A stretch of DNA of 42,176 nucleotides, taken from the NCBI RefSeq assembly GCF_025964975.1, contig NZ_JAOPXV010000116.1, positions 1 through 42,176 on the forward strand, given 5' to 3'. A program made the translations under genes and the position numbers. The notes below the pieces were generated by a model, which saw nothing but the letters and a program-made list of their open reading frames with translations, had not been told where the DNA came from and did no database searches. The stretch is from Nocardioides sp. (GTDB lineage: Bacteria; Actinomycetota; Actinomycetes; Propionibacteriales; Nocardioidaceae). This document shows, in pieces, positions 19,288 to 33,721 of this stretch; the first letter of the stretch is position 1, and each line of letters opens with the position of its first letter.

Positions 19288-19818
19288 ATGGCGACAGGAT
19301 CCCCCGAGACGTCCACGTCGATCGACAGGCGTCCGTCCAAGGGCGCCGGCGTGCTGCACGGGATCGGACTGGGCGGGTTCATCGACGGGATCGTGCTGCA
19401 TCAGATCCTGCAGTGGCACCACATGGTCAGTGACGTCGAGGCCTACCCGGTCACGACGGTGGCCGGTCTCGAGGTGAACACGATGGCCGACGGGTTCTTC
19501 CACATCGCCTCCTGGCTCTGTGTCGTCGGTGCGTCGATCGTGACCTTGGCCCAGTGGCGGCAGGGCCGGCTCGCTCCCAACGCGAAGTTCCACCTGGGTG
19601 GCGCGCTCGCTGGCTGGGGCCTGTTCAACGTCGTCGAAGGGGTCGTGGACCACCTCGTCCTCGGCGTGCACCACGTCCGCGATGACCTCGGCGGGCCGTT
19701 GTCCTGGGACATCGGCTTCCTGCTCTTGGGCCTCGCTCTGGTCGGCGTCGGCTGGCTGCTCCAGCGATCGGGCGAGCGCGCCCTCGGCGAACAGGCATGG
19801 ACACCGCCGTCTCCCTGA
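19288..19818 (+). CDS. DUF2243 family membrane protein
   Basis: This is a 176-residue protein of four predicted helices. It shows the DUF2243 signature: GIGLGGFIDGIVLHQILQWHHM near residues 27-48, then HIASWLCVVGASIVTL, GWGLFNVVEGVVDHLVLGVHHV near 110-131, and a last helix IGFLLLGLALVGVGWLL. The several His at helix ends (LHQILQWHH, VDHLVLGVHHV) look like a metal or haem site, but the family function is not established. It lies back to back with the truncated cobS fragment and probably arrived with or after that deletion. Confidence 0.88.
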   Translation: MATGSPETSTSIDRRPSKGAGVLHGIGLGGFIDGIVLHQILQWHHMVSDVEAYPVTTVAGLEVNTMADGFFHIASWLCVVGASIVTLAQWRQGRLAPNAKFHLGGALAGWGLFNVVEGVVDHLVLGVHHVRDDLGGPLSWDIGFLLLGLALVGVGWLLQRSGERALGEQAWTPPSP

Positions 19819-19841
19819 CCCGCATGGTCCCTGGCGACGGG

Positions 19842-20591
19842 TCAGGCGGGCGGATCTGTGCTCACGTGCTCGGTGTAGACGATGACGTTCGACTGGTAGC
19901 CGCCACGGCTCGAGTCGTAGTCCCCGCCGCAGGTGACGATGTTGAGCGTCGGACGGTCCGGGGTGCCGGCATAGACCTGCTCGGCGGGGAACTCGTCGTT
20001 CGGGATCGTCTCGAGGCGCGATACCTCGAAGGTCTCGACCGTTCCGTCACCGAGGGTGACGAGCACCCGCGAACCCGGCACGAGCTCACGCAGGCGATAG
20101 AAGACCGCTGGCCCCTCCGTCGAGTCGACGTGCCCCAGGATCACGGCCGACCCGAGCTGACCAGGACTGGTCCCGAGCTCGTACCACCCCGCCTGGTCGG
20201 CGTCCTGCGGCACCTCGACCGTGCGGTCCTCCTCGAGCCCAAGCCTGACCAGCTCCGAGGAGACGGCCACCGAGGGGATCGTGATGGACACGGGGTCGGT
20301 CGGCAGCGTGCCGTCAGGGGTCGCCGGTGAGGCAGCTGTGGTCGGCTTCGCGGTCCTTGGGACCGGCGTTCCGCTCGCGGCGGGCCCCTTCGTCCTGACC
20401 GGTGCGGAAGTGCTCAGCGATGACGAGGCCCTCGGTCCAGCGTCCTGTGAAGGAGCTTGTGTCCCGGCGTCGTTGATGAGGATCCCGGCGATGGCCAACA
20501 CCGTCGCGGCGACGGCGAGGCACCTGGCAAGCACCCACCGGCGACCAGGACCATCCCGGGTGCCGGTGGACGTGCCTGGGGAGTCGGACAC
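19842..20591 (-). CDS. Class F sortase
   Basis: This is a 249-residue protein with start GTG 20589-20591. An N-terminal membrane anchor (RWVLARCLAVAATVLAIAGILI) is followed by an extended Ser/Thr/Pro/Ala stalk, then the sortase domain at about 100-249. The catalytic residues are visible: His in VILGHVDSTEG, Cys in LNIVTCGGDYD and Arg in the following SSRGGYQSNVIVY. Short Class F/E-like sortases with this C-terminal pattern are frequent in actinobacteria. It begins 6 bases after the stop of the ice-binding-like surface protein gene on the same strand. That protein ends in a sorting-signal-like tail, so it is the obvious substrate. Confidence 0.9.
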   Translation of the reverse strand: MSDSPGTSTGTRDGPGRRWVLARCLAVAATVLAIAGILINDAGTQAPSQDAGPRASSSLSTSAPVRTKGPAASGTPVPRTAKPTTAASPATPDGTLPTDPVSITIPSVAVSSELVRLGLEEDRTVEVPQDADQAGWYELGTSPGQLGSAVILGHVDSTEGPAVFYRLRELVPGSRVLVTLGDGTVETFEVSRLETIPNDEFPAEQVYAGTPDRPTLNIVTCGGDYDSSRGGYQSNVIVYTEHVSTDPPA

Positions 20592-20597
20592 GTGCGA

Positions 20598-21617
20598 TCA
20601 GCGCTGGCGGAGGGAGCGGTTCCTCAGCGTGGATGCCAGGACGGCACCGGTAGCTGCGAGACCACCCAGGAGGAACAGGACGATCGGAGTGCTGTCACCC
20701 TGCTGGACGCCCCCGAGGCCCGTGGGCGGGTTGCCGGCCGGGATGACGGGGCCGTCGTCGTTCGGGGACCCGCTCGGGCTGGAGGTCTCCGTGGGGCTCG
20801 GCTCGGGCTTCGGGGTCCTGGTCTTCGTGGGCGTCGCCGTCGGCGTCGGCGTCGGCGACGGCGACGGAGCCGCGGCGCAGGTCGGCGTCGTGATGACGTT
20901 GGTGTCGAGCGTGACCGCCCCGTTGCGGGCCAGGATGCGCCCATTGACGTTGGCGCCGGTGGTGAGCGTCGCTGAGGTGAGTGCCAGGACCGTGCCGACG
21001 AATTGCGTGCCGGTGCCCAGCGTCGCGGAGCTGCCCACCTGCCAGAAGACGTTGCAGGCTGACGCGCCGTTCGTAAGCACGACCGAGCTGTTCGACCCGG
21101 TGGTGAGGGTCGAGCCTGCCTTGAAGATGAAGACCGCGTTCGGGTCACCCTGGGCGTCGAGCGTCAACGCGCCACTCAGCCCCAGGGAGGTCGCCGACGA
21201 GTAGACGCCCGGCGTCAACCGCTGCCCGGCCAGGTCGGCGGTGACGGTCGCCGAGGTCGAGCGGCCAGCAGCATCGTTGTAGGCGGTGGTGAGGTCGACC
21301 TGCGCCTGGTTGGCGACGGCGTCGGCAACGTGCGTGGTGCCCTGGACGGTGCCGGGCGGGAAGCCGGTGACGGCGGACCCGGGCGCGAGACCGAGATCCG
21401 CGCTGAGCACCGACGGGCCGGTGTTGGTGATCGCACTGCCGGCCAGGACGGAGAACGACTCGGCGGTGCCGAGGCCCACCCGAGCCTCGGCGGCGTGGGC
21501 AGGCGCCATGCCGAGCGAGGCGACGCCCGCAACGAGCAGACCGACGGCGGCCAGCCCGAGGCCGTTCGAGAAGTGTCGGGTGGTGCGCGGCCGGGGGGCG
21601 GCGATGGACTGGTTCAT
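20598..21617 (-). CDS. DUF3494 ice-binding-like surface protein with sorting signal
   Basis: The ATG at 21615-21617 gives 339 residues and fits a GAAGAG ribosome site and the signal peptide (helix LGLAAVGLLVAGVASLGM, then APAHAAEA). Residues about 45-235 form the DUF3494 beta-solenoid: LGTAESFSVLAGSAITNTG, SVLSADLGLAPGSAVTGFP and FIFKAGSTLTTGSNSSVVL. Also present is CNVFWQVGSSATLGTGTQFVG. Known members bind ice and act as antifreeze or ice-adhesion proteins. A Pro/Thr/Ser linker follows, then a C-terminal NPPTG motif with a hydrophobic helix (TPIVLFLLGGLAATGAVLAS) and a basic tail (RNRSLRQR), a sortase sorting signal. Wall anchoring by the adjacent sortase is inferred. Confidence 0.88.
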   Translation of the reverse strand: MNQSIAAPRPRTTRHFSNGLGLAAVGLLVAGVASLGMAPAHAAEARVGLGTAESFSVLAGSAITNTGPSVLSADLGLAPGSAVTGFPPGTVQGTTHVADAVANQAQVDLTTAYNDAAGRSTSATVTADLAGQRLTPGVYSSATSLGLSGALTLDAQGDPNAVFIFKAGSTLTTGSNSSVVLTNGASACNVFWQVGSSATLGTGTQFVGTVLALTSATLTTGANVNGRILARNGAVTLDTNVITTPTCAAAPSPSPTPTPTATPTKTRTPKPEPSPTETSSPSGSPNDDGPVIPAGNPPTGLGGVQQGDSTPIVLFLLGGLAATGAVLASTLRNRSLRQR

Positions 21618-21855
21618 GGGAGTCTCTTCACGTGCGGAGTCATCCGCGTCGGGCGACCCGGCGAGCGAGTCGGTTCTGCTCGGTTGCCGCGAAACAGTCG
21701 TTTTGGCGGCGGCGCGCAAGGTGTCGCACCGAGGGCAAGGCAGGGTCAGGGTGCTTGCCCACGTCGGAACCTACACCTCCGCGGCCCGGTAGAGGCCATC
21801 TCGGCACATTCGGAGGACGCGGCGTCCAGACCGACCATCACCGCGACGCCGAGGC

Positions 21856-22753
21856 ATGATGGCCGCCGTGACCCGTGATCCCTCGGCTCCCGGCCCGGTG
21901 GCTGCTCTCCGCGACGTCACCGTCGGGTCCTTCACCTTCCGCGTCACCGACACCGGGCGGCCGCGCGGCCGCCCGGTCCTGCTGCTGCACGGCTTTCCAC
22001 AGACGTCCTGGTGCTGGCGGCACCTGATCCCGCCGCTGGTCGCCGCCGGGCATCGGGTGCTGACACTCGACCAGCGCGGGTACTCGCCCGGAGCCTGTCC
22101 GGAAGCGATGGAAGACTATGCCGGAGAGCATCTCGTCAGTGACGTGACCGGCGTCCTCGACGCGCTCCGCATCGAGTCCGTCGACCTGGTCGGCCACGAC
22201 TGGGGAGCGGCCGTGGCCTGGCAGGTGGCCGGCCACCACCCCGAGCGGGTCACGACCCTCACGGCGATCTCGGTGCCGCACCCCGGTGCCTTCATGGAGG
22301 CGCTCGCCTCCGACCCGGACCAACACCTCGTTCCGCCTACATGACTGAGTTCGCCGCCGCGGGATACGAGAGGGTGCTGCTGGCCGACGACGCGGCCGGA
22401 CTGCGCTCGCTCTTCGCAGAGTCGACCGGCGCCGCCGTGGACCACGTCCTGAGCCGGCTCGGCACCGAAACCCAGCTGCGCCGAGCACTGAACTGGTATG
22501 CCGCGCAGTCGGCACAGTGAGCGCTGTCGACACCGCTGACGTCCGTGCCCACCTGCACGTCTGGTCCGATGCCGATGCGGCGCTCGGGGAGTACGGCGCC
22601 CGCGCCACCCAGCGCTACGTCACCGGGCCCTACCAGTTCGCCACACTGCCCGGAGTCGGCCACTGGATCCCCGAGGACGCTCCCCAGCAGATCGCCGACC
22701 TCAGGCGGACGGGGGCCTTGTCGCCGTACCACGACCCTGCGGCGGTTTGGTGA
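21856..22753 (+). pseudogene. Alpha/beta hydrolase gene with two frameshifts
   Basis: The gene starts at ATG 21856. The first frame gives the N-terminal half of a haloalkane-dehalogenase/epoxide-hydrolase-like protein: VLLLHGFPQTSWCWRHLIPPL, LTLDQRGYSPG and VDLVGHDWGAAVAWQVA with the nucleophile Asp in GHDWG. Near 22327 one base is missing; the next frame reads RSAYMTEFAAAGYERVLL to RRALNWYAAQSAQ. Near 22515 a second shift leads to a third frame with HVWSDADAALG and the catalytic His in LPGVGHWIPEDAPQQI. The C-terminal end overlaps the convergent transporter gene by about 50 bases. All catalytic motifs survive, so decay is recent or the shifts are sequencing errors. Confidence 0.78.
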
Positions 22754-24033: not shown

Positions 24034-25071
24034 TCACTGCTGGAAGCGCACCGGTTCCCCGCGGTCGAGTCGTTCTCGCTGCGGTACGACGGTGTACTTC
24101 GGGTCGTTCGCCGAGGCGATGCCCGCCTCGAAGACGCCCATGCGGGTGCTGAAGGAGCCGGCCATCAGGGCCGCCCCGGAGAGCATCGACAGCACTCGGC
24201 TGCGCCGACCGGCCAACGCCCCCACGGCACCCGCTGCCGTCATGCCGAGGCTCATCCGCATCCACCGGCCGGCCTCCCCGTGGTGAAGCGTCTCGGCCGA
24301 CAAACCCATCGACCGCTCCATGCGACGCTCGACCGCAAGCTCGACCAGGGCGCCACCGACGGCGAAGGCACGCGCCGGCCCGGACTCGTGGAGCGGCGCA
24401 CCGATGAGCCCGAGGCCGCCGGACGCTGCCGCAGCTGAGCCGCAGAAGACGAAGGGCAGCTCCTCATACGCGGAGTGCCAGGCCGGCGTCGCAGTGTCAG
24501 CCAGCAGTACGGCGGTGTAGGCCGCCACCGGCGGCGCGGTCAAGGCACCCACCAGACCAGCGGGCCGGCCCAGGGCGAGCAGCAGCCGGACGGGCCGCGT
24601 TTGCAGGCGGGTCGGCAGCATGCCGACGAGCTCCGCCATCGACGCCAACATCGCGAACGGTGCATGGAGCGACAGGATCCAGGTGCCGACCGACATCGGG
24701 GAGGTCACCTTGGCGACGCGCAGCATGTTGAGGAAGCGGCTGGGCTTGCCGAGGTCGTGCACCAGGAAGGCCGTGCTCGCCAGCAGGCTGCCCAGGGAAC
24801 CGAGCCTCGCCACCCGCCGCAGCGCGGGGCGCCCGGTGAGATCCGCCCCGGCCGCCAGCATTGAGCTGCCCGCGGCGACACCGCCGGTGAAGAGGTAGTA
24901 GGCGATGTCGTGCTCCCAAGGAGCTGCCTTGACGATCGGTCGTCCGTAGTAGGAGGTGAACTCGGCGTCCGGGACCATGACCTGCTCGGCGCCGCCCTTG
25001 CCGCCACGCCTGCTCCCCGGCCCGGCGTCGCGCTCGCGCCCTGGGCTGCCGCCGTGCTGGACCCGGGTCAT
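24034..25071 (-). CDS. NrfD/PsrC-type membrane subunit of formate dehydrogenase
   Basis: This is a 345-residue protein with AGGAGG five bases before its ATG (25069-25071), which overlaps the FeS-subunit stop (ATGA). After a polar N-terminus of about 45 residues comes the NrfD motif WEHDIAYYLFTGGVAAGSSML, followed by about eight helices (LGSLGSLLASTAFLVHDLGKP, LLALGRPAGLVGALTAPPVAA and others). NrfD proteins are the membrane anchors of molybdenum enzymes; they take electrons from the FeS subunit and pass them to quinone without haem. It is part of the fdh operon. Length and helix pattern are normal. Confidence 0.88.
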   Translation of the reverse strand: MTRVQHGGSPGRERDAGPGSRRGGKGGAEQVMVPDAEFTSYYGRPIVKAAPWEHDIAYYLFTGGVAAGSSMLAAGADLTGRPALRRVARLGSLGSLLASTAFLVHDLGKPSRFLNMLRVAKVTSPMSVGTWILSLHAPFAMLASMAELVGMLPTRLQTRPVRLLLALGRPAGLVGALTAPPVAAYTAVLLADTATPAWHSAYEELPFVFCGSAAAASGGLGLIGAPLHESGPARAFAVGGALVELAVERRMERSMGLSAETLHHGEAGRWMRMSLGMTAAGAVGALAGRRSRVLSMLSGAALMAGSFSTRMGVFEAGIASANDPKYTVVPQRERLDRGEPVRFQQ

Positions 25072-26024
25072 GGGGTCCTCCTCAGGAATGCGAGCGCTGC
25101 GCCCGCCAGCATCGCCGTCCCGGCCATCCCCGCACGACGGAACATCTGGGGCAGGTCCTTGGTCGTCACCACTGGGTCGGGCGGCAGGCCGTAGACCTCC
25201 GGCTCGTCGAGCAGCAGGAACATCGCCCCCGTGCCGCCGACGCCGTCGTCGGGGTCGTTGCCGTAGAGACGGGCGTCCATCACTCCTTGCTCATGGAGGG
25301 TCGCCACCCGGGCGCTGGCGCGTTCGCGGAGCTCCTCGACGTCGCCGTACAGAATCGACTCCGTCGGGCAGGCCTGGGCGCACGCAGGGCGCTGGTCGTC
25401 CTTCAGCCGGTCGTAGCAGAGCGTGCACTTCTGCGCGATGCCGACCTTGGGATCGCCCTCGGGGCCTCGTCGGCGATCGATGACGCCGTACGGGCACGCG
25501 GCGACGCAGTAGCCGCAGCCGTTGCAGATGTCGTCCTGCACGACGACCGTGCCGAACTCGGAACGGAACAGCGAGCCCGTGGGGCACACGTCGAGGCAGG
25601 CAGCGTGGGTGCAGTGCTTGCAGACGTCGGAGGACATCAGCCACCGGAAGTCCGGCTTCTCGTCCTCTGGCACCTCCGTCGGCGCGGCGCCCAGGGTCGG
25701 CATGCCGAGGTCGACGCTGTCGCGACCCGGGGCGTCACTGATCGTCGGCGGCAGCCCCACCGACGAACGGCCCGCGGGTTGCTCGATGAACGCGACGTGC
25801 CGCCACTGGTTGGCGTTGAGCGAGTGGCTGTTGTCGTAGCTCGTGCCGAGCATCTCGTAGAGGTTCTCCGGGACGTCGTTCCACTCCTTGCACGCCACCT
25901 CGCAGGCCTTGCAGCCGATGCAGACACTGGTGTCGGTGAAGAAGCCCTTGCGTTTCGGGGCGTCGACGTAGCCCGCGTCCGGTGCGGGGTCGAGCGGTCC
26001 GAACAGACTGTTGGCGCTGGTCAC
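25068..26024 (-). CDS. Formate dehydrogenase iron-sulfur subunit
   Basis: This is a 318-residue protein with start GTG 26022-26024; GGAGG lies five bases upstream and the start overlaps the catalytic-subunit stop (GTGA). Four Cys clusters bind four [4Fe-4S] centres: CIGCKACEVACKEW near residues 35-48, CKHCTHAACLDVCPTGSL near 135-152, CNGCGYCVAACPYG near 167-180, and CTLCYDRL with CAQACPTESI. A C-terminal hydrophobic segment (MAGTAMLAGAALAFL) may anchor it. It carries electrons from the catalytic subunit to the NrfD-like membrane subunit. The order catalytic-FeS-membrane is that of the known actinobacterial Fdh operon. Confidence 0.93.
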   Translation of the reverse strand: MTSANSLFGPLDPAPDAGYVDAPKRKGFFTDTSVCIGCKACEVACKEWNDVPENLYEMLGTSYDNSHSLNANQWRHVAFIEQPAGRSSVGLPPTISDAPGRDSVDLGMPTLGAAPTEVPEDEKPDFRWLMSSDVCKHCTHAACLDVCPTGSLFRSEFGTVVVQDDICNGCGYCVAACPYGVIDRRRGPEGDPKVGIAQKCTLCYDRLKDDQRPACAQACPTESILYGDVEELRERASARVATLHEQGVMDARLYGNDPDDGVGGTGAMFLLLDEPEVYGLPPDPVVTTKDLPQMFRRAGMAGTAMLAGAALAFLRRTP

Positions 26025-29000
26025 TGGTCCTCCCGTTGCTGCGGTGAGTGCTGGTCTGCGCCGTCCTGCGCGGCCGCGGAGCGTTGCTGGGCATCGGCCG
26101 AGGCGGTCACCACGGGACCCTCTTCGTGGTCGAGTACCCCAGCGCGCCGGGCGTACCCCTCGACGTACTCCCGAAGAGCAGGTCCGGTCGGGCGGCGACC
26201 AGGCCGGACGTCGCAGGTCCCGACCTTGCTCTCCTGGATCAGCACGTTGGGGTCGAGCGAGATGCCGAAGAGGTCGTTGGTCGAGTCACCGCTGACCAGG
26301 CCGCCCTGACCCCAGTGGTAGGGCATCCAGACCTGATGGACCGTCCGCCCCTCGACGCGCAGCGGACGCAACCGCTCAGTGACGAGCACCTTGCCCTCCA
26401 CCGCCGACCTTGCGGTGATGACATGGCACCAGCCCATGTGCTCGAGACCGCGTTCGGCGGCCAGCGCTGGCGAGACCTCGACGAACATCTCCGGCTGCAG
26501 CTCCGCGAGGTGCTCGACGTAGCGGCTCATCGCGCCGGCGGTGTGGTGCTCGGTCAGGCGGCTGGTGGTGAACACGAAGGGGAAGACCTCCGCTGCCCCG
26601 GGCTCGCGCGGGTCCGGGTTCAGGGGGTTGTCGGAGCGGCGGTACTCCTTGCGCGTCGGGTTGCCCTGCTGGCCGTGGAGGAGGTTGCGGAACGGCGACT
26701 CCACGGGCTCGTAGTGGGTCGGCATCGGACCGTCGATCAGTCCCTGCGGTGCGTACAGCGCGCCCTTGCCGTCGCCCTGCATGATGAACGGGTCGATGCC
26801 CTCGATGGCCGCGACGCCGTCCGACCCCTCGGGTGCGCGGTAGGACGGCGGCTTCTTCTTCTCGAAGTCGGGGACGTCGTGCCCTGTCCACTCCTGTGCG
26901 TCCTCGTCCCACCAGACATAGGCCTTGCGCTCGCTCCACGGCCGGCCCTGTGGGTCGGCGGAGGCGCGGTTGTAGAGCAGCCGGCGGTTCATAGGCCAGG
27001 CCCAGCCCCATTCCGGGGCGACCTCGGACTGCTCGTGGCGCGACTTCCTTCGCGCCGCCTGGTTCACGCCATCGGCGTAGACGCCGGAGTAGATCCAGCA
27101 CCCGCCGAGTGTGGAGCCGTCGTCCTTCATCTCCCCGAAGCCCGACAGCAGGCGGCCGGTGGCGACCTCGTAGCCGTTGATCTCCTTGAGGACGGCCTCC
27201 GCGCTGGGCTCGCCCCATCCCGACGACGCCGCCTCACCGTGGAGCGGGTAGTCCCACGCCAGGTCGAGCAACGGCCGGTCGCGCTCGTCGCTCGAGCCGG
27301 CCAGACTCTCACGCATCATCCGGCCGAGGTGGTAGAAGAACCACAGCTCGGAGCGGGCGTCGCCCGGCGGCTCGACGGCCTTCTCGCGCCACTGCAGCAT
27401 GCGTTGCGTCTGGGTGAAGGTACCTTCCTTCTCGACGTGCGAGGCGGCCGGGAAGAGGAAGACCTCGGTCCGGCACTCCTCAGGCACGATCTCGCCGGTC
27501 TGCACCTCTGGGGAGTCCTTCCAGAACGTCGCGCTCTCGATCTCGAAGAGGTCGCGCACCACGAGCCAGTCGAGGTTCGCCATGCCGAGGCGCTGGGCGC
27601 GGCCGTGGGCGGAGCCGACGGCGGGGTTCTGGCCGACGAGGAAGTAGCCCTGCACCTTGCCGTCGATCATGTCGAGCACGGTCCGGTAGGTGCCGTGATC
27701 GCCGGTGATCTTCGGCAGGTAGTCGAAGCAGTAGTCGTTCTCGGCCGTCGCCGCATCGCCCCAGTAGGCCTTCAGCAGGTTGATGCCGTACGCCCCTGCG
27801 TTGGCCCAGAAGCCTTTGCTGCCGGGGTTCCGGACGCCGTCGATCCAGTCGCTCAGGGTCTGGTGGCTGGCCGCGTTGGGCATCGGGAGGTAGCCGGGAA
27901 GGAGGTTGAAGAGCGTCGGGATGTCGGTGGAGCCCTGGATGCTGGCGTGGCCGCGCAACGCCATGATTCCGCCGCCGGGGCGCCCCATGTTGCCGAGCAG
28001 CAGCTGGAGGATCGCCCCGGCGCGGATGTACTGCACGCCGACGCTGTGCTGGGTCCAGCCGACGCTGTAGACGAGCGCGGTGGTGCGCTCGCGGCCGGAG
28101 TTCTCCGTCCACGCGCGGCAGACCTCGAGGAAGTCCTCCTGCGAGACGCCGCAGATCTGCTCGACGACCTCGGGGGTGTAGCGGGCGTAATGCCGCTTGA
28201 GCACCTGGAAGACGCACATCGGATGCTGCAGCGTCTCGTCGCGGGGCGGGTGGCTGCCGACCTGCATGCCGTGCGCCTCGTTCTGCATGCCGGCGGCGGT
28301 GTCGCGCTGCTCCGCGGTGTCGCCGGCGTCGTCAGCCTGGGCCTGACCGAGCTCGCCGTCCTGGTCCTCCTGGGCGAACTGCCAGCTCGTGGGGTCGTAC
28401 GTCCTCGTCTCGGGGTCGAACCCGGAGAACAGGCCGTCGAGCCCGTCGACGTCCTCGAACTTGTCGCTGACGATGTTGGCCGCGTTGGTGTAGTTGACGA
28501 CGTACTCGCGGAAGTCGAGCTCGTTCTGCAGGACGTGGTTGATGATCCCGCCGAGGAACGCGATGTCGCTGCCGACGCGGATGGGCACGTGCTGGTGCGC
28601 GAGCGCGCTCGTTCGCGTGAACCGCGGGTCGACGTGGATGATCCGTGCGCCCCGCTTCTTCGCCTCCATCACCCACTGGAAGCCCACCGGGTGGGCCTCA
28701 GCCATGTTGGAGCCCTGGATGACGATGCAGTCAGCGTTGGCCAGGTCCTGCTGGAACCCGGTGGCGCCGCCGCGTCCGAAGCTGGTCCCCAGACCGGGGA
28801 CGGTGGCGGAGTGTCAAATACGCGCCTGGTTCTCGATCTGGATGGCGCCCATCGCGGTGAAGAGCTTCTTGATGAGGTAGTTCTCCTCGTTGTCCAGCGT
28901 GGCGCCGCCCAGGCTCGCGATCCCCATCGTCCGCCGCACCTTGCGGCCGTGCTCGTCGATGTCCTGCCAGCTGTCCTTGCGCGACTTCAGCACCCGGTCG

Positions 29001-29383
29001 GCGACCATCTCCATCGCGGTGTGGAGCTCGAGGTCCTGCCACTCGGTGGCGTACGGCGCCCGGTAGCGGACCTTCGTCTGGCGCAGGTCGCTCGTCACGA
29101 GGTTCTTGCTCGCCGAGCCCTTGGGGCACAACCGGCCGCGGTTGACCGGGCTCTCGGGGTTGCCCTCGATCTGGACGACCTTCTCGTCCTTGACGAACAC
29201 CTTTTGCGCACATCCCACGGCGCAGTAGGGGCACACGCTGTGCGCGACCCGGTCGGCACCCGTCGTGCGAGGCACGATGTCGTCCGTACGCCGCGAGCGG
29301 ACCGCTGCACCTCGGCCGAGGACGTCACCGGCGGTGAACTGGCGCAGGAGCGGCCACGGGAGGAAAGATCGCGATCCTGTCAT
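26021..29383 (-). CDS. fdhA: Selenocysteine-containing formate dehydrogenase catalytic subunit
   Basis: This is one gene read through an in-frame TGA: ATG 29381-29383 (AGGAG upstream), Sec at codon 190 (TGA at 28814-28816), stop at 26021; total 1120 residues. The N-terminal [4Fe-4S] site has C51xxC54xxxC58 and RGRLCPKGSAS. The active-site context is NQARI-Sec-HSATVPGLG, the classical formate dehydrogenase xRxUH motif, in which Sec coordinates Mo/W. Molybdopterin-binding motifs follow: NADCIVIQGSNMAEAHPVGF, VDPRFTRTSA, NMGRPGGGIMALRGHASIQG and, near the C-terminus, VWMPYHWGQGG. A hydrophilic Asp/Gln/Gly-rich insert lies about 310 residues in. It oxidises formate to CO2. No Tat signal is seen. 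The insertion machinery (selD, tRNA-Sec, selA, selB) lies directly upstream. An annotation splitting it at 28705 or 28814 would be wrong. Confidence 0.93.
28785..28816 (-). promoter_or_regulatory. Bacterial SECIS element with its UGA codon
   Basis: On the minus strand TGA (28816-28814) is followed after 12 bases by the hairpin GTCCCC-GGTCT-GGGGAC (28801-28785): a perfect 6-bp stem and five-base loop. Bacterial SECIS elements sit immediately 3' of the UGA inside the coding frame, and the E. coli fdhF element has a GGUCU-containing apical loop recognised by SelB; the loop here is the same. The spacing also agrees. It codes in frame for the residues after Sec. Confidence 0.85.
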
Positions 29384-29453
29384 GCCGGACTCCTGGGGGT
29401 GCGCTGCAGACGACGCTCACGACCCTAGGGACGTCCGAGCCGCCTCATCCACC

Positions 29454-29463
29454 CCCCATGGGG
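29454..29463. promoter_or_regulatory. Palindrome between selD and the formate dehydrogenase gene
   Basis: CCCCATGGGG is a perfect 10-base palindrome, extended to CACCCCCCATGGGGTG with a 2-base asymmetry. It lies in the 90-base spacer between selD and the fdh catalytic gene. It could be a regulator site for the fdh operon or a weak stem after selD; there is no T-run to support a terminator. The function is unknown. Confidence 0.3.
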
Positions 29464-29473
29464 TGAAGGCGCG

Positions 29474-30475
29474 TCAGCGGACCAGGACGGTGTGCTCCCC
29501 CTGCGCGACCACCTCACCGATGACGGGGTGGCCCGGAAGCTCGCCGACGACCAGGAGTCCGCCAGACGTCTGGGCATCGGCCAGCAGCAACAGCTCGTCG
29601 TCACTGACTCCGGCTTCGACGTGTGGGCGGACCCAGTCCAGGTTGCGCCGACTGCCGCCCGGCACGAACCCGTCGGCGAAGGATGACCGTGCGCCCTCGA
29701 TGTAGTGAACGGCAGAGGCGTCGATGACCGCGCTCGTCCCACTGGCGCGCATCATCTTCATCAGATGTCCGAGGAGCCCGAACCCGGTGACGTCCGTGGC
29801 CGCGCGCACCCCCGCCTCCAGGGCCGCGCGACTGGCGCGGTCGTTGAGGGTCGTCATCACGGCAACGGCTTCCTCGAACCACTCCCCCGTGGCCTTGTGC
29901 CGGTTGTTCAGGACGCCGAGCCCGAGGGGCTTGGTCAGGGTGAGCGGGGTGCCGGGCGCGGCCGCGTCGTTGCGGAGGAGCCGCTCGGGATCGGCGAGCC
30001 CGGTGACCGCGAGGCCGTACTTGGGCTCCGGGTCGTCGATGCTGTGGCCGCCCGCGAGGAACGCCCCCGCCTCGGCGCAGGCATCGTCCCCGCCACGAAG
30101 CACCTCAGCCGCCACGTCGAAGGGGATCCGGTCGCGGGGCCATCCGAGCAGGTTGACGGCGACGACCGGCGTGCCACCCATGGCATAGACGTCCGACATC
30201 GCGTTGGCTGCAGCGATCCGGCCGAAGGTGTAGGCGTCGTCGACGACGGGCGTGAAGAAGTCGGCTGTCGCGATCACCGCGCGTCCCGTGCCGTCCTCGG
30301 CTGGGTGGATTCGCACGACGGCTGCGTCGTCGCCGTGGTCGAGACCCACCAGCAGGTCACCGCCGGCTCGGCCACGGCCGAGCGAGCCCAACACCCGTTC
30401 GAGCTCACCGGGCGGCACCTTGCAGGCGCACCCGCCGCCAGCGGCGTACTGGGTCAGCCTTAGGGGGGAGTTCAT
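29474..30475 (-). CDS. selD: Selenide, water dikinase
   Basis: This is a 333-residue protein with ATG 30473-30475. The N-terminal loop GGGCACKVPP supplies the reactive Cys (Cys, not Sec, in this copy) and the invariant Lys. The ATP/Mg sites follow: GLDHGDDAAVVRI, IATADFFTPVVDDAYTFGRI, AAANAMSDVYAMGG and GGHSIDDPEPKYGLAVTG. The C-terminal domain has DVTGFGLLGHLMKM and LLADAQTSGGLLV. The enzyme makes selenophosphate from selenide and ATP, the selenium donor for SelA. It ends 90 bases before the formate dehydrogenase gene on the same strand and diverges from tRNA-Sec, with only 29 bases between. The Shine-Dalgarno sequence is weak, so short-leader or leaderless translation is possible. Confidence 0.93.
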   Translation of the reverse strand: MNSPLRLTQYAAGGGCACKVPPGELERVLGSLGRGRAGGDLLVGLDHGDDAAVVRIHPAEDGTGRAVIATADFFTPVVDDAYTFGRIAAANAMSDVYAMGGTPVVAVNLLGWPRDRIPFDVAAEVLRGGDDACAEAGAFLAGGHSIDDPEPKYGLAVTGLADPERLLRNDAAAPGTPLTLTKPLGLGVLNNRHKATGEWFEEAVAVMTTLNDRASRAALEAGVRAATDVTGFGLLGHLMKMMRASGTSAVIDASAVHYIEGARSSFADGFVPGGSRRNLDWVRPHVEAGVSDDELLLLADAQTSGGLLVVGELPGHPVIGEVVAQGEHTVLVR

Positions 30476-30504
30476 GCCGCCAATCTATGACTAGAGTCCA
30501 GCGC

Positions 30505-30599
30505 GGAGGCGGTTCTCGTCTGGTGACGGACGCGGTCCTCAAAACCGTCGTGGCCCAGCACCTGGGCCAGGCGGGTTCGATTCCCGTCCGCCTCCGCCA
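30505..30599 (+). tRNA. selC: Selenocysteine tRNA (anticodon TCA)
   Basis: A 95-base tRNA with an 8-bp acceptor (GGAGGCGG at 30505-30512, CCGCCTCC at 30588-30595), discriminator G and encoded CCA (30597-30599). The anticodon loop is CCTCAAA with anticodon TCA, which reads UGA. A long variable arm forms the stem TGGCCCAG/CTGGGCCA, and the T arm is GCGGG-TTCGATT-CCCGT. The long acceptor, long variable arm and TCA anticodon together are specific for tRNA-Sec. selA begins 21 bases later, so the tRNA is probably processed from a selC-selA-selB transcript. A TAGAGT at 30492-30497 may be its -10 box. Confidence 0.95.
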
Positions 30600-30620
30600 G
30601 ACGTCTCGCAGGAGGATGGG

Positions 30621-31955
30621 GTGCCGGATCCGAGGCGGAGCACTCCGCGCACTGACACCGTGCTGGCGGACCCGAGGTTGCGGCAGGCCTCCGACAGACT
30701 CGGGTCCGCACTCGTCAAGGCGGTCGTGGCCGACGCGCTCGACCGGTGCCGGGCCGGGCTGGTCCCTCCCGGCTCGGTGGCCGATGCGGCCGTGGCAGCG
30801 CTACCGGCAACGGCCACCACCCTGCGGCGGGTCATCAACGCCACCGGCGTGCTGGTGCACACCAACCTGGGCAGGGCCCCGTTGTCCGCGGCGGCGACAG
30901 ATGCTGTGCGTATGGCGGCAGGTGCCTCCGACGTCGAGCTGGACCTTGTCACCGGGCGGCGGGGACGACGGGGCGAGGGCGCCCTGACCGCGTTGCAGGC
31001 ACGGGTGCCGAAAGCAGGGGGCGTGCACGTCGTGAACAACGGGGCGGCGGCGCTGTCCTTGGTGACCATGGTGCTCACGCGTCGGCCGACCGGTGCAGGC
31101 GGCACCGTCGTCATCGCCCGCGGCGAGCTGGTGGAGATCGGCGACGGCTTCCGGATCCCCGAGCTGCTGGAGTCGGTCGGCGCACGGCTGCGTGAGGTCG
31201 GGACCACCAACCGCGTCCGGCTGGAGGACTACGCCAGCGCCCTCGACGAGGACACAGCCTTCGTCCTCAAGGTGCATCCGTCCAACTTCACCGTCACCGG
31301 GTTCACCTCCTCCGTGCCTGTCTCCGAGCTGGCCCGCCTAGGCGTGCCTGTGGTCGTCGACATCGGGTCCGGTCTGCTGGCACCACACCCGCGGCTGCCC
31401 GCCGAGCCCGATGCAGCGACTGCGCTGAGGGACGGCGCTTCGCTGGTGACGGCCTCGGGCGACAAGCTGCTCGGCGGACCGCAGTGCGGCCTGCTGCTGG
31501 GCAACGCCGAGCTGGTCGAGCGCCTTCGCCGCGATCCATTCGCTCGTGCGCTGCGCGTCGACAAGCTCACCCTGGCCGCGCTCGAGGCGACCCTCATCGG
31601 GCCCGAGTCACCCGTGGCCGTCGCCCTGGGACGCCGCGTCGAAGCGCTGCGTGTCCGCGCCCATGACCTCACCGATGCGCTCCCGCCCGAGCTGCGAGCG
31701 GAGGTGGTCGACTCGGACGGAGCCGTCGGTGGCGGCGGCGCCCCGGGCGTCACGCTGCCCAGCTGTGCAGTGGCGCTGCCCGCACGCCTCGCAACCGCGT
31801 TGCGCGCCGGCGATCCGCCGGTGGTGGGTCGGATCATGGAGGGCCGGTTGCTGCTCGACCTGTTCGCAGTGGCTCCGGAGGAGGACGCCGACCTGGTCGC
31901 TGCCCTGACCGCGGCCACCATTGCAGGTCGCGCCAACGGCTCCGGTCCGACCTGA
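30621..31955 (+). CDS. selA: L-seryl-tRNA(Sec) selenium transferase
   Basis: This is a 444-residue protein with start GTG 30621 and AGGAGG five bases upstream. The family motifs are VINATGVLVHTNLGRAPLS near residues 70-88, AVHVVNN-type cofactor region (GGVHVVNNGAAAL), REVGTTNRVRLEDY, VHPSNFTVTGF and VVDIGSGLL. The PLP-binding Lys282 is in ASGDKLLGGPQCGLLLG. SelA forms a decamer that converts Ser-tRNA(Sec) to Sec-tRNA(Sec) with selenophosphate. The stop TGA shares one base with the ATG of selB (31955), showing tight coupling. It lies directly after tRNA-Sec. Confidence 0.95.
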   Translation: MPDPRRSTPRTDTVLADPRLRQASDRLGSALVKAVVADALDRCRAGLVPPGSVADAAVAALPATATTLRRVINATGVLVHTNLGRAPLSAAATDAVRMAAGASDVELDLVTGRRGRRGEGALTALQARVPKAGGVHVVNNGAAALSLVTMVLTRRPTGAGGTVVIARGELVEIGDGFRIPELLESVGARLREVGTTNRVRLEDYASALDEDTAFVLKVHPSNFTVTGFTSSVPVSELARLGVPVVVDIGSGLLAPHPRLPAEPDAATALRDGASLVTASGDKLLGGPQCGLLLGNAELVERLRRDPFARALRVDKLTLAALEATLIGPESPVAVALGRRVEALRVRAHDLTDALPPELRAEVVDSDGAVGGGGAPGVTLPSCAVALPARLATALRAGDPPVVGRIMEGRLLLDLFAVAPEEDADLVAALTAATIAGRANGSGPT

Positions 31956-33721
31956 TGCACGTCGTCGCGACGGCCGGTCACGTCGACCACGGCAAGTCGA
32001 CCCTGGTCCGGGCGCTCACGGGCACTGACCCCGACCGGCTCGCCGAGGAACGTCGGCGGGGACTCACCATCGAGCTCGGCTACTGCTGGACGTCCCTGCC
32101 CGGGGCGACGGACGGTCCCTGCGTGGACCTGGCCGTGGACCTGGCCTTCGTGGACGTCCCGGGACACGAGCGATTCGTCACGACGATGCTGGCAGGGGTG
32201 GGCCCGGTGCCGGCGGCCCTGCTGGTGGTCGCAGCAGACGACCCCTGGATGCCGCAGACCTCGGAGCACCTGGCGGCGCTGGACGCGCTCGGTGTCTCCC
32301 ACGGCGTGGTGGCAGTGACCCGCAGCGACCTCGCCGACCCCGGGCCGGCGACCGTCCGGGTGCGCGCCGAGATCGCCGGGACCTCACTTGCCGGCGCCCG
32401 GGTGGTGCCCGTCAGTGGCCGTACGGGCGCAGGGCTCGACGACCTCCGCGCGGCCCTGGTGACCATGGTGGAGGGTCTTCCCACTCCAAACCCGGCGGCG
32501 GACGTCCGGCTCTGGGTCGACCGTCGCTTCTCCGTCCGCGGGGTCGGCACCGTCGTCACCGGCACCCTGCCCGCAGGGACGGTGCGCGTCGGCGACGTGC
32601 TTGCCACCGACGACGGGTTGGTGCGGGTGCGCGGCCTGCAGGCGCTCGAGCGCGACGAGTCCGCAGTCCGCGGGGTGGCCAGGGTGGCGCTCAACCTCAC
32701 CGGCGACGTCGATGCCATCACCCGTGGCAGCGCACTGACCACGCCGCAGGCCTGGCACCACACCTCGGCCGTCGACGTGCGCGTGACCGGGGCGGGCGAT
32801 CCTCCACTGAACCCTCGACTCCACATCGGGGCTGCCGACCTGACAGTGCGGCACCGCCCCCTCGGACCCGGCCTGGCTCGGCTCAGCCTGGAGCGCCCGC
32901 TGCCGTTGCGGATCGGGGACCGCTGTCTGCTTCGCGATCCCGGCCGGCGCGTCGTGTGGCGCGTCGACGTCCTCGACCCGGACCCGCCCCGGCTGCGAAG
33001 GAGGGGGGCTGCGGCGCGGCGGGCGAACGCGCTCGCCGAAGCGGACGGTGGTGCCCGGTTGGCCGACGAGCTCACCCGCCGCGGGATCGCCCACCGCGAC
33101 CGGATGCGTCAGCTCGGCGTACCCCTCACCGATGGCGACCACCTTGTTGCCGGCCCGTGGCTGATCGGGCCCACAGCGGCCGAGGCCCTGGCACGCCGAG
33201 TGCCGAGCCTCGTCGAGAGCCACGCCTGTCAGCACCCTCTCGACCCGGCGGTCCCCGTCTCGGTGCTGGCCGCGCGGCTCGGCCTGCCCTCCCCCGACCT
33301 GGTCGCGCACCTGGTTCGGCCTCCGCTGCGCGTCGCCGACGGCCGGGTGCGGGCGCCGGAGGCGGACAGCCTGCCGCCTGCGGTCGCGGCCGCGGTGGAG
33401 TCCGTACGCCGCGAGCTGATCTCCGCACCTTTCCGTGCGCCGACCGCAGACCGGCTGCGGGACCTCGGGCTCGACGAGCGTGCGCTGGCCGCGGCCGAAC
33501 GGGCGGGGCTGCTCTGGCGGGCCGCGCCGGGGATCGTGCTGTTGCCCGACGCGCCCGACGTGGCCGTCGCCCGGATGCGGGGACTCGAGCAGCCCTTCAG
33601 CACCAGCGCGGCGCGACAGGTGCTCAACAGCACCCGCCGGGTCGTCCTCCCCCTGCTCGAACGGCTCGACCGGCTCGGGCGGACCTCGCGGCTGCCGGAC
33701 GACCGCCGCCACGTGCGCTGA
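31955..33721 (+). CDS. selB: Selenocysteine-specific translation elongation factor
   Basis: This is a 588-residue protein whose ATG 31955 overlaps the selA stop. The G domain has GHVDHGKSTLV (P-loop, residues 8-18), LTIELGY, VDVPGHERFV and TRSD in place of the usual NKxD. EF-Tu-like domains 2 and 3 follow (VRGVGTVVTGTLPAGTVRVGD near 190-210, LTGDVDAITRGS). The C-terminal part, from about 390, is a series of winged-helix domains that bind the SECIS hairpin (LARRVPSLVESHACQHPLDP, DRLRDLGLDERALAAAERAG). SelB brings Sec-tRNA to a ribosome stalled at UGA. Its only visible client in the window is the formate dehydrogenase. It ends 33 bases before a convergent gene. Confidence 0.94.
   Translation: MHVVATAGHVDHGKSTLVRALTGTDPDRLAEERRRGLTIELGYCWTSLPGATDGPCVDLAVDLAFVDVPGHERFVTTMLAGVGPVPAALLVVAADDPWMPQTSEHLAALDALGVSHGVVAVTRSDLADPGPATVRVRAEIAGTSLAGARVVPVSGRTGAGLDDLRAALVTMVEGLPTPNPAADVRLWVDRRFSVRGVGTVVTGTLPAGTVRVGDVLATDDGLVRVRGLQALERDESAVRGVARVALNLTGDVDAITRGSALTTPQAWHHTSAVDVRVTGAGDPPLNPRLHIGAADLTVRHRPLGPGLARLSLERPLPLRIGDRCLLRDPGRRVVWRVDVLDPDPPRLRRRGAAARRANALAEADGGARLADELTRRGIAHRDRMRQLGVPLTDGDHLVAGPWLIGPTAAEALARRVPSLVESHACQHPLDPAVPVSVLAARLGLPSPDLVAHLVRPPLRVADGRVRAPEADSLPPAVAAAVESVRRELISAPFRAPTADRLRDLGLDERALAAAERAGLLWRAAPGIVLLPDAPDVAVARMRGLEQPFSTSAARQVLNSTRRVVLPLLERLDRLGRTSRLPDDRRHVR

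Follow-up and report, generated by a model that had tools for sequence, protein, structure and literature searches.

A class F sortase gene adjoining the gene for a DUF3494 ice-binding-like protein in Nocardioides sp.: a probable dedicated sortase-substrate cassette for surface display

The window, i.e., the whole stretch of 42,176 nucleotides that was analysed, constitutes contig C50 of a genome of 3.66 Mb, assembled in 238 contigs and 91% complete. Its minus strand carries a DUF3494 gene (20598-21617) followed by a sortase gene (19842-20591), which starts with GTG at 20591; 6 bases separate this GTG from the last base of the DUF3494 stop codon, at 20598. The features of the pair are as follows.

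20598..21617, minus strand: gene for a putatively secreted DUF3494 (ice-binding-like) protein, 339 aa (PF11999; AlphaFold model compared with 6eio)
21489..21617, minus strand: signal peptide, about residues 1-43 (by eye: basic start, then a hydrophobic stretch and AHAA ahead of the mature part)
20889..21449, minus strand: DUF3494 domain, residues 57-243 (PF11999)
20745..20876, minus strand: Pro/Thr/Ser-rich linker (translated sequence)
20718..20744, minus strand: candidate sorting signal IPAGNPPTG, which contains P-x-G-x-P-x-T-G (sequence pattern)
20625..20690, minus strand: C-terminal membrane helix, about residues 310-331 (hydropathy 2.35)
20601..20624, minus strand: basic tail RNRSLRQR (translated sequence)
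20592..20597, minus strand: intergenic gap of 6 bases between the DUF3494 and sortase genes
19842..20591, minus strand: class F sortase gene, 249 aa (PF04203, NF033748; AlphaFold model compared with 7f87)
20475..20540, minus strand: N-terminal membrane anchor of the sortase, about residues 18-39 (by eye)
19866..20285, minus strand: sortase domain (profile match, alignment)
20130-20132, minus strand: sortase His154 (alignment)
19929-19931, minus strand: sortase Cys221 (alignment)

The neighbouring genes are a convergent one for a DUF2243 membrane protein and a divergent one for an alpha/beta-hydrolase, so that the DUF3494 and sortase genes form an isolated pair, which is probably transcribed as one unit. 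No promoters or terminators were found in a scan of positions 19500-22000 with a consensus that is ill-suited to a GC-rich genome. Elsewhere in the window lies a selenocysteine island (26021-33721) with tRNA-Sec (30505-30599), SelA, SelB, an AIR-synthase-like (SelD-like) gene and a molybdopterin oxidoreductase, and an NrfD-type gene is located near it (24034-25071).

The DUF3494 protein matches PF11999 over the full length of the profile (E 1.3e-64, positions 1-208 of 208). The AlphaFold model of its DUF3494 part agrees with 6eio (E 1.9e-17, 52% identity over 201 columns, rmsd 1.8), and its nearest relatives of solved structure are ice-binding or antifreeze proteins. The protein may therefore bind ice, as judged from its fold and sequence match. 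PF11999 figures as an ice-binding adhesive domain in a survey of fibrillar adhesins, according to its accessible text (PMC8286594). The protein's tail has the sequence ...GPVIPAGNPPTG-LGGVQQGDS-TPIVLFLLGGLAATGAVLASTL-RNRSLRQR-stop, i.e., a motif, a hydrophobic stretch (highest Kyte-Doolittle mean over 17 residues, 2.35) and a basic end, which together with the signal peptide recognised by eye gives the architecture of a cell-wall-sorted protein. All parts named by the sequence-only reading (signal peptide, solenoid, Pro/Thr linker, NPPTG, membrane helix and basic tail) are thus present, the signal peptide by eye. The motif is not LPXTG; it is NPPTG, set within PAGNPPTG.

The product of the second gene matches PF04203 (E 3e-21) and scores 170 bits with the NCBIfam class_F_sortase model (NF033748), above its cut-off of 166; profile matches and coordinates thus bear out the class F sortase gene that had been read from the letters 6 bases after the DUF3494 gene. 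The AlphaFold model of its catalytic part superimposes on sortase A 7f87 (Z 17.8, rmsd 1.9, 132 residues). A phmmer search of the window sortase against PDB sequences gave no match at E 0.001, and a profile search of the PDB reached 4d70 (E 2e-8, best of 32). The active-site His and Cys are kept in 86/86 aligned sortases. The usual position of the catalytic Arg is occupied by Asn235 in the window sortase, and across the aligned actinobacterial class F or class-F-like sortases by Asn in 85/86 and Asp in 1/86; the departure from Arg is common to the class and is therefore no bar to class F membership. The enzyme of the first class F study, by Di Girolamo in 2019, reportedly accepts LPXTG.

The pair recurs widely. 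An order-level sample of 195 related genomes, the window's own included, contained DUF3494 in 36 genomes and an above-cutoff class F sortase in 52, the latter being present in 34/36 genomes with DUF3494 versus 18/159 others (hand count). A DUF3494 gene directly adjoins 33 of the 68 above-cutoff class F sortases, and these 33 adjacent pairs among 195 genomes confirm that the pairing is more than chance; the arrangement is thus not uncommon, contrary to the sequence-only reading. One genome (G038) has two cassettes, L034 and L007, 60 kb apart on its contig C1. Literature searches on sortases and on ice-binding or DUF3494 proteins, judged by titles and the beginnings of abstracts, brought up no report of the pairing. 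It is possible, if somewhat doubtful, that the same cassette serves general adhesin display and that the solenoid binds a target other than ice, such as a mineral, a polysaccharide or another surface. Among the carriers are many named soil bacteria that are not known as cold specialists, and a domain resembling the ice-binding fold occurs in a Bacillus protein described as collagen-binding, according to the accessible text of that report (PMC9210967). Against a non-ice target stand the closest solved relatives, which are ice-binding or antifreeze proteins with 6eio at 52% identity, and the titles of MAGs that carry the pair, two with 'palsa' and one with 'Chersky', which we read as permafrost-type sites. 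Ice binding, together with wall fixation of the DUF3494 protein, would be the natural reading.

Whether a DUF3494 gene has a class F neighbour is predicted by the tail of its product. Sampling was widened to 394 genomes class-wide, 65 of them with DUF3494, and to 396 genomes phylum-wide, 35 with DUF3494; 4 weak or partial matches in the class-wide and 7 in the phylum-wide sample were left out, as were matches of less than 150 profile positions (fragments, e.g., L112, L113 and L151). The resulting first set comprised 145 DUF3494 frames with a near-complete domain from across the phylum, 7 of which were set aside as cut, meaning that the contig ends within 700 bases downstream without a sortase. 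Among the uncut tails, a class F sortase adjoined 19/21 with a non-Leu xPxTG motif, 26/26 with PxGxVx[TA]G and 0/21 with LPxT[GS], which had another sortase adjoining in 3 cases. Of the remaining tails, 6/70 had a class F neighbour: L036 and L063 are damaged or masked, L133, L147 and L153 carry close signal variants, and L111 is a fusion. A pairing of another kind is seen in the three LPxTS-tailed DUF3494 proteins beside a non-class-F sortase (L090, L105 and L114); two of the three sortases were scanned, and both (L090 and L105) match the class D model specific for LPxTATN.

Alignment of the tail types showed that P-x-G-x-V-x-[T/A]-G and P-x-G-x-P-x-T-G, the latter with PAGNPPTG of the window, are one pattern. 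P-x-G-x-[V/P]-x-[T/A]-G was sought in the last 90 residues and, in the L111 fusion, after residue 250. A class F sortase accompanied 46/46 uncut first-set frames with this pattern (45 directly downstream, 1 fused) and 5/92 without it (Fisher p 2e-31), a p value that is inflated by the relatedness of the genes and belongs to a pattern written after both data sets had been seen. As background, the pattern occurred near the end of 29/3640 other frames of at least 150 residues at the same loci. Random association, sought in the co-occurrence survey that the sequence-only reading had proposed, was not seen; the pairing was near-complete and dependent on the signal. NPPTG does differ from LPxTG as that reading had pointed out, but the recognisable unit is the eight-residue pattern and not NPPTG alone.

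Named loci, the best 80 of 561 candidates listed, were fetched separately from the first set and gave 82 frames; after removal of 9 with a domain already in the first set, 73 remained, 10 of them cut and 63 uncut. A sortase was found in 11/13 with the pattern versus 8/50 without it (Fisher p 7e-6), a weaker link than in the first set. The two exceptions with the pattern and no same-strand sortase are L213, which has a sortase on the other strand, and L232. Among the 8 without the pattern are five LPxTG or LPNAG proteins (L201, L222, L236, L255 and L260) with class-F-like sortases that score 106-138 bits, below 166, and keep Arg. Two of these five titles name Doudnabacteria and Magasanikbacteria and three just 'bacterium', and the loci look like those of candidate-phyla bacteria. 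The other three are L230 and L243, whose sortases reach 32-33 bits with the class F model, and L196, a signal variant.

Two simpler rules were discarded. The rule that a class F neighbour is always absent from LPxT[GS] DUF3494 proteins agreed with the first set (0/21 uncut) but not with the named loci (4/15 among the best 80 of 561). The rule combining non-Leu xPxTG or PxGxVx[TA]G gave 45/47 versus 6/91 in the first set and 12/17 versus 7/46 in the same named loci, and the single longer pattern did better (46/46 and 11/13). Beyond DUF3494 proteins, 13/34 non-DUF3494 class F or class-F-like sortases have, within 2.2 kb, a same-strand frame with a Val-type signal and a hydrophobic stretch near its end, and 21/34 are without such a frame at that distance; the signal is thus not confined to DUF3494 proteins.

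The tails differ in what follows the signal. In the first set, each of the 19 paired Pro-type proteins keeps the full signal, helix and basic tail, and 19/27 Val-type DUF3494 tails fail the test for a membrane helix plus basic tail. The latter (L015-L021, L023-L028, L030, L032, L033, L059, L068 and L075) stop soon after xVxTG[DQ] or end weakly hydrophobic, and a sortase adjoins all of these genes except L075, which lies at a contig end. L015-L021, L023-L028, L030, L032 and L033 come from group g3, the genomes of which have 8 Mb and are presumably Kribbella-like. We consider it unlikely that the sortase hydrolyses and releases the DUF3494 protein, or that the protein stays held in the membrane, with no link to the wall in either case; the Asn in place of the usual Arg in 85/86 sortases and the helix-plus-basic end missing from 19/27 Val-type tails would fit such an outcome, but the window protein, like all 19 paired first-set Pro-type proteins, retains signal, helix and basic tail.

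The sortases of the Pro type are also set apart. In a tree of 89 sortase domains, the 19 Pro-type partners together with L063 and L151 formed one group (SH-aLRT 90), which recurred in a tree of 69 rows including 14 controls (SH-aLRT 99). The group contained 0/34 of the non-DUF3494 class F or class-F-like controls, which comprised 18 of 35 above-cutoff class F sortases and 16 below-cutoff ones. Val-type partners occupied two other places in the tree, and the partner of L133, the signal variant, a third. The sharpest differences between the 21 Pro-type sequences and the 65 others concern residues 217 (Asn/Gln/Thr, with Arg in 0/21, versus Arg in 64/65), 125 (Val versus Leu/Met), 219 (Val versus Ile), 152 (Leu versus Ala/Val) and 203 (Ala versus Thr/Ser). 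In the AlphaFold model, residues 217 and 219 lie four and two positions before Cys221 on the Cys221 strand, residue 152 lies two before His154, and residue 203 lies between strands 185-197 and 214-226. Among the new named partners (best 80 of 561), Arg217 was present in 0/9 Pro-type versus 2/2 Val-type sequences, with the L196 sortase falling outside the alignment. The catalytic Arg is present in five candidate-phyla-like relatives (alignment A4). In the class E sortase SrtE1, as described in the accessible text, a bound tripeptide from the enzyme's own N-terminus is touched by the beta6/beta7 loop and by the residue two positions ahead of the catalytic His (PMC5148588); residue 152 is equivalent to Ala249 of SrtE1, with His251 as the His (PMC5148588). 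As the Pro type is a single clade, the groove change counts as one evolutionary event and not as repeated proof. Residues 152, 203, 217 and 219 of the groove changed together with the signal, in which Pro replaces Val at the fifth position, and this would make the pair private.

The claim that the sortase has one substrate gained support from the window's genome. A DNA-level scan of this 91%-complete assembly found (I/V)PxGxPxTG 3 times and PxGxVxTG 18 times (reversed controls, 2 and 20 times); it covered Pro-type motifs with Ile or Val ahead of the first Pro and, in both types, those with Thr at the Thr/Ala position. Of these 21 matches, 19 lie in a frame of at least 40 codons, and 1 has the signal near the C-terminus followed by a membrane helix, namely the DUF3494 gene; no second C-terminal signal with a helix was found by this non-exhaustive pattern scan. 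Contigs C7 and C182 (L163:6018-7910 and L164:5868-7998) encode related secreted proteins whose C-termini consist of LPETG and four further residues and lack a membrane helix; close behind each lies the gene for a sortase that keeps Arg (66 and 64 bits against the cut-off of 166). These sortases are also next to candidate substrates, and hence all three sortases found in the genome have a candidate substrate as neighbour. Incidental adjacency of a general sortase with other substrates is highly improbable, given a class F sortase in 46/46 frames with the signal, the purity of the clade and the single C-terminal signal with helix found, even though some class F sortases lack a DUF3494 neighbour and other substrates could be missing from a 91%-complete genome.

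In the DUF3494 tree (143 labelled rows), no fewer than 11 changes are required to account for which genes have a class F sortase beside them. Tree-aware pairs, with 6 on starred branches, were too few to be decisive (2.5 in the same direction, 0.0 opposite, 3.5 without difference; median p 0.25). Distances among DUF3494 proteins correlated with those among their sortases (r 0.75 for 51 pairs, 0.60 for the 19 Pro-type pairs and 0.53 for one pair per genus; 0/5000 permutations each), which is compatible with inheritance as a unit and equally with shared species history. At L111:2590-4323 (minus strand), one 577-residue protein consists of DUF3494, a linker, DPQVPIKPIGFVATGGGS and a class F sortase (174 bits, above the cut-off), so that the two domains have a signal-like stretch between them. 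It is a single case, as no further fusion spanning both domains was found in 81 genomes of its genus.

Taken together, the pair in the window is very probably a dedicated sortase-substrate cassette for surface display. We hypothesize that the DUF3494 protein is exported, that its C-terminal helix and basic tail keep it in the membrane, and that the class F sortase, anchored beside it, recognises its PAGNPPTG. The sortase would then cut between Thr and Gly by means of Cys221 with His154 and transfer the protein to the cell wall, where the ice-binding-type solenoid would be shown at the surface on its Pro/Thr stalk. More generally, we see an even chance that class F sortases of Actinomycetota use a code of their own, P-x-G-x-[V/P]-x-[T/A]-G, which is read without the catalytic Arg, each sortase serving the one protein of the adjacent gene, and that display of DUF3494 proteins is a leading task in the order; one sub-clade would have switched to the Pro type by the groove change, some substrates would have lost the helix, and one would have become fused to its sortase with the signal in between.

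The physiological roles of class F sortases were stated to be unknown in the accessible text of a 2026 paper, in which a quadruple srtF deletion in Actinoplanes missouriensis had no phenotype (PMC13251363). The window cassette therefore supplies these enzymes with a likely substrate and with a signal open to testing, and its recurrence in many related bacteria points to a job for them. Searches for pentapeptides may miss such substrates because the signal is longer and P-x-T-G is not obligatory. The signal and the groove residues are each testable by a peptide assay (VIPAGNPPTGLGG, VIPAGNPPAGLGG, TMPTGGVETGNGS and LPETG) and the removal of one gene. If the solenoid binds ice, the cassette would provide soil bacteria with a wall-fixed ice-binder, and an enzyme that reads a private sorting signal could be of use for orthogonal ligation.

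The cassette is a variant of sortase-substrate pairs as a kind; what is new is the greater length of the signal, how tightly it is linked to class F sortases, the private groove and how frequent the cassette is. The window protein has fold and sequence in common with DUF3494 or type 1 ice-binding proteins such as 6eio, to which it adds a tail for wall sorting and a sortase gene as partner. Like other class F sortases of Actinomycetota (NF033748), the window sortase scores above the family cut-off, but it belongs to the DUF3494-partnered sub-clade without the Arg217 found in 64/65 others. In A. missouriensis, AMIS_11010 and AMIS_36440 adjoin srtF1 and srtF4; their function is unknown, and the authors consider that they may be substrates (PMC13251363). 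By description in the accessible text, these proteins share the signal peptide, transmembrane region and basic tail with the window DUF3494 protein, but unlike in the latter no sorting pentapeptide was found in them (PMC13251363). The class E sortase and its LAXTG signal, as the accessible text presents them, are likewise actinobacterial, with a signal that departs from LPXTG at one key position and groove residues that match it (PMC5148588). Unlike the window sortase, that enzyme belongs to another class, has chaplins as substrates and keeps the catalytic Arg (PMC5148588).
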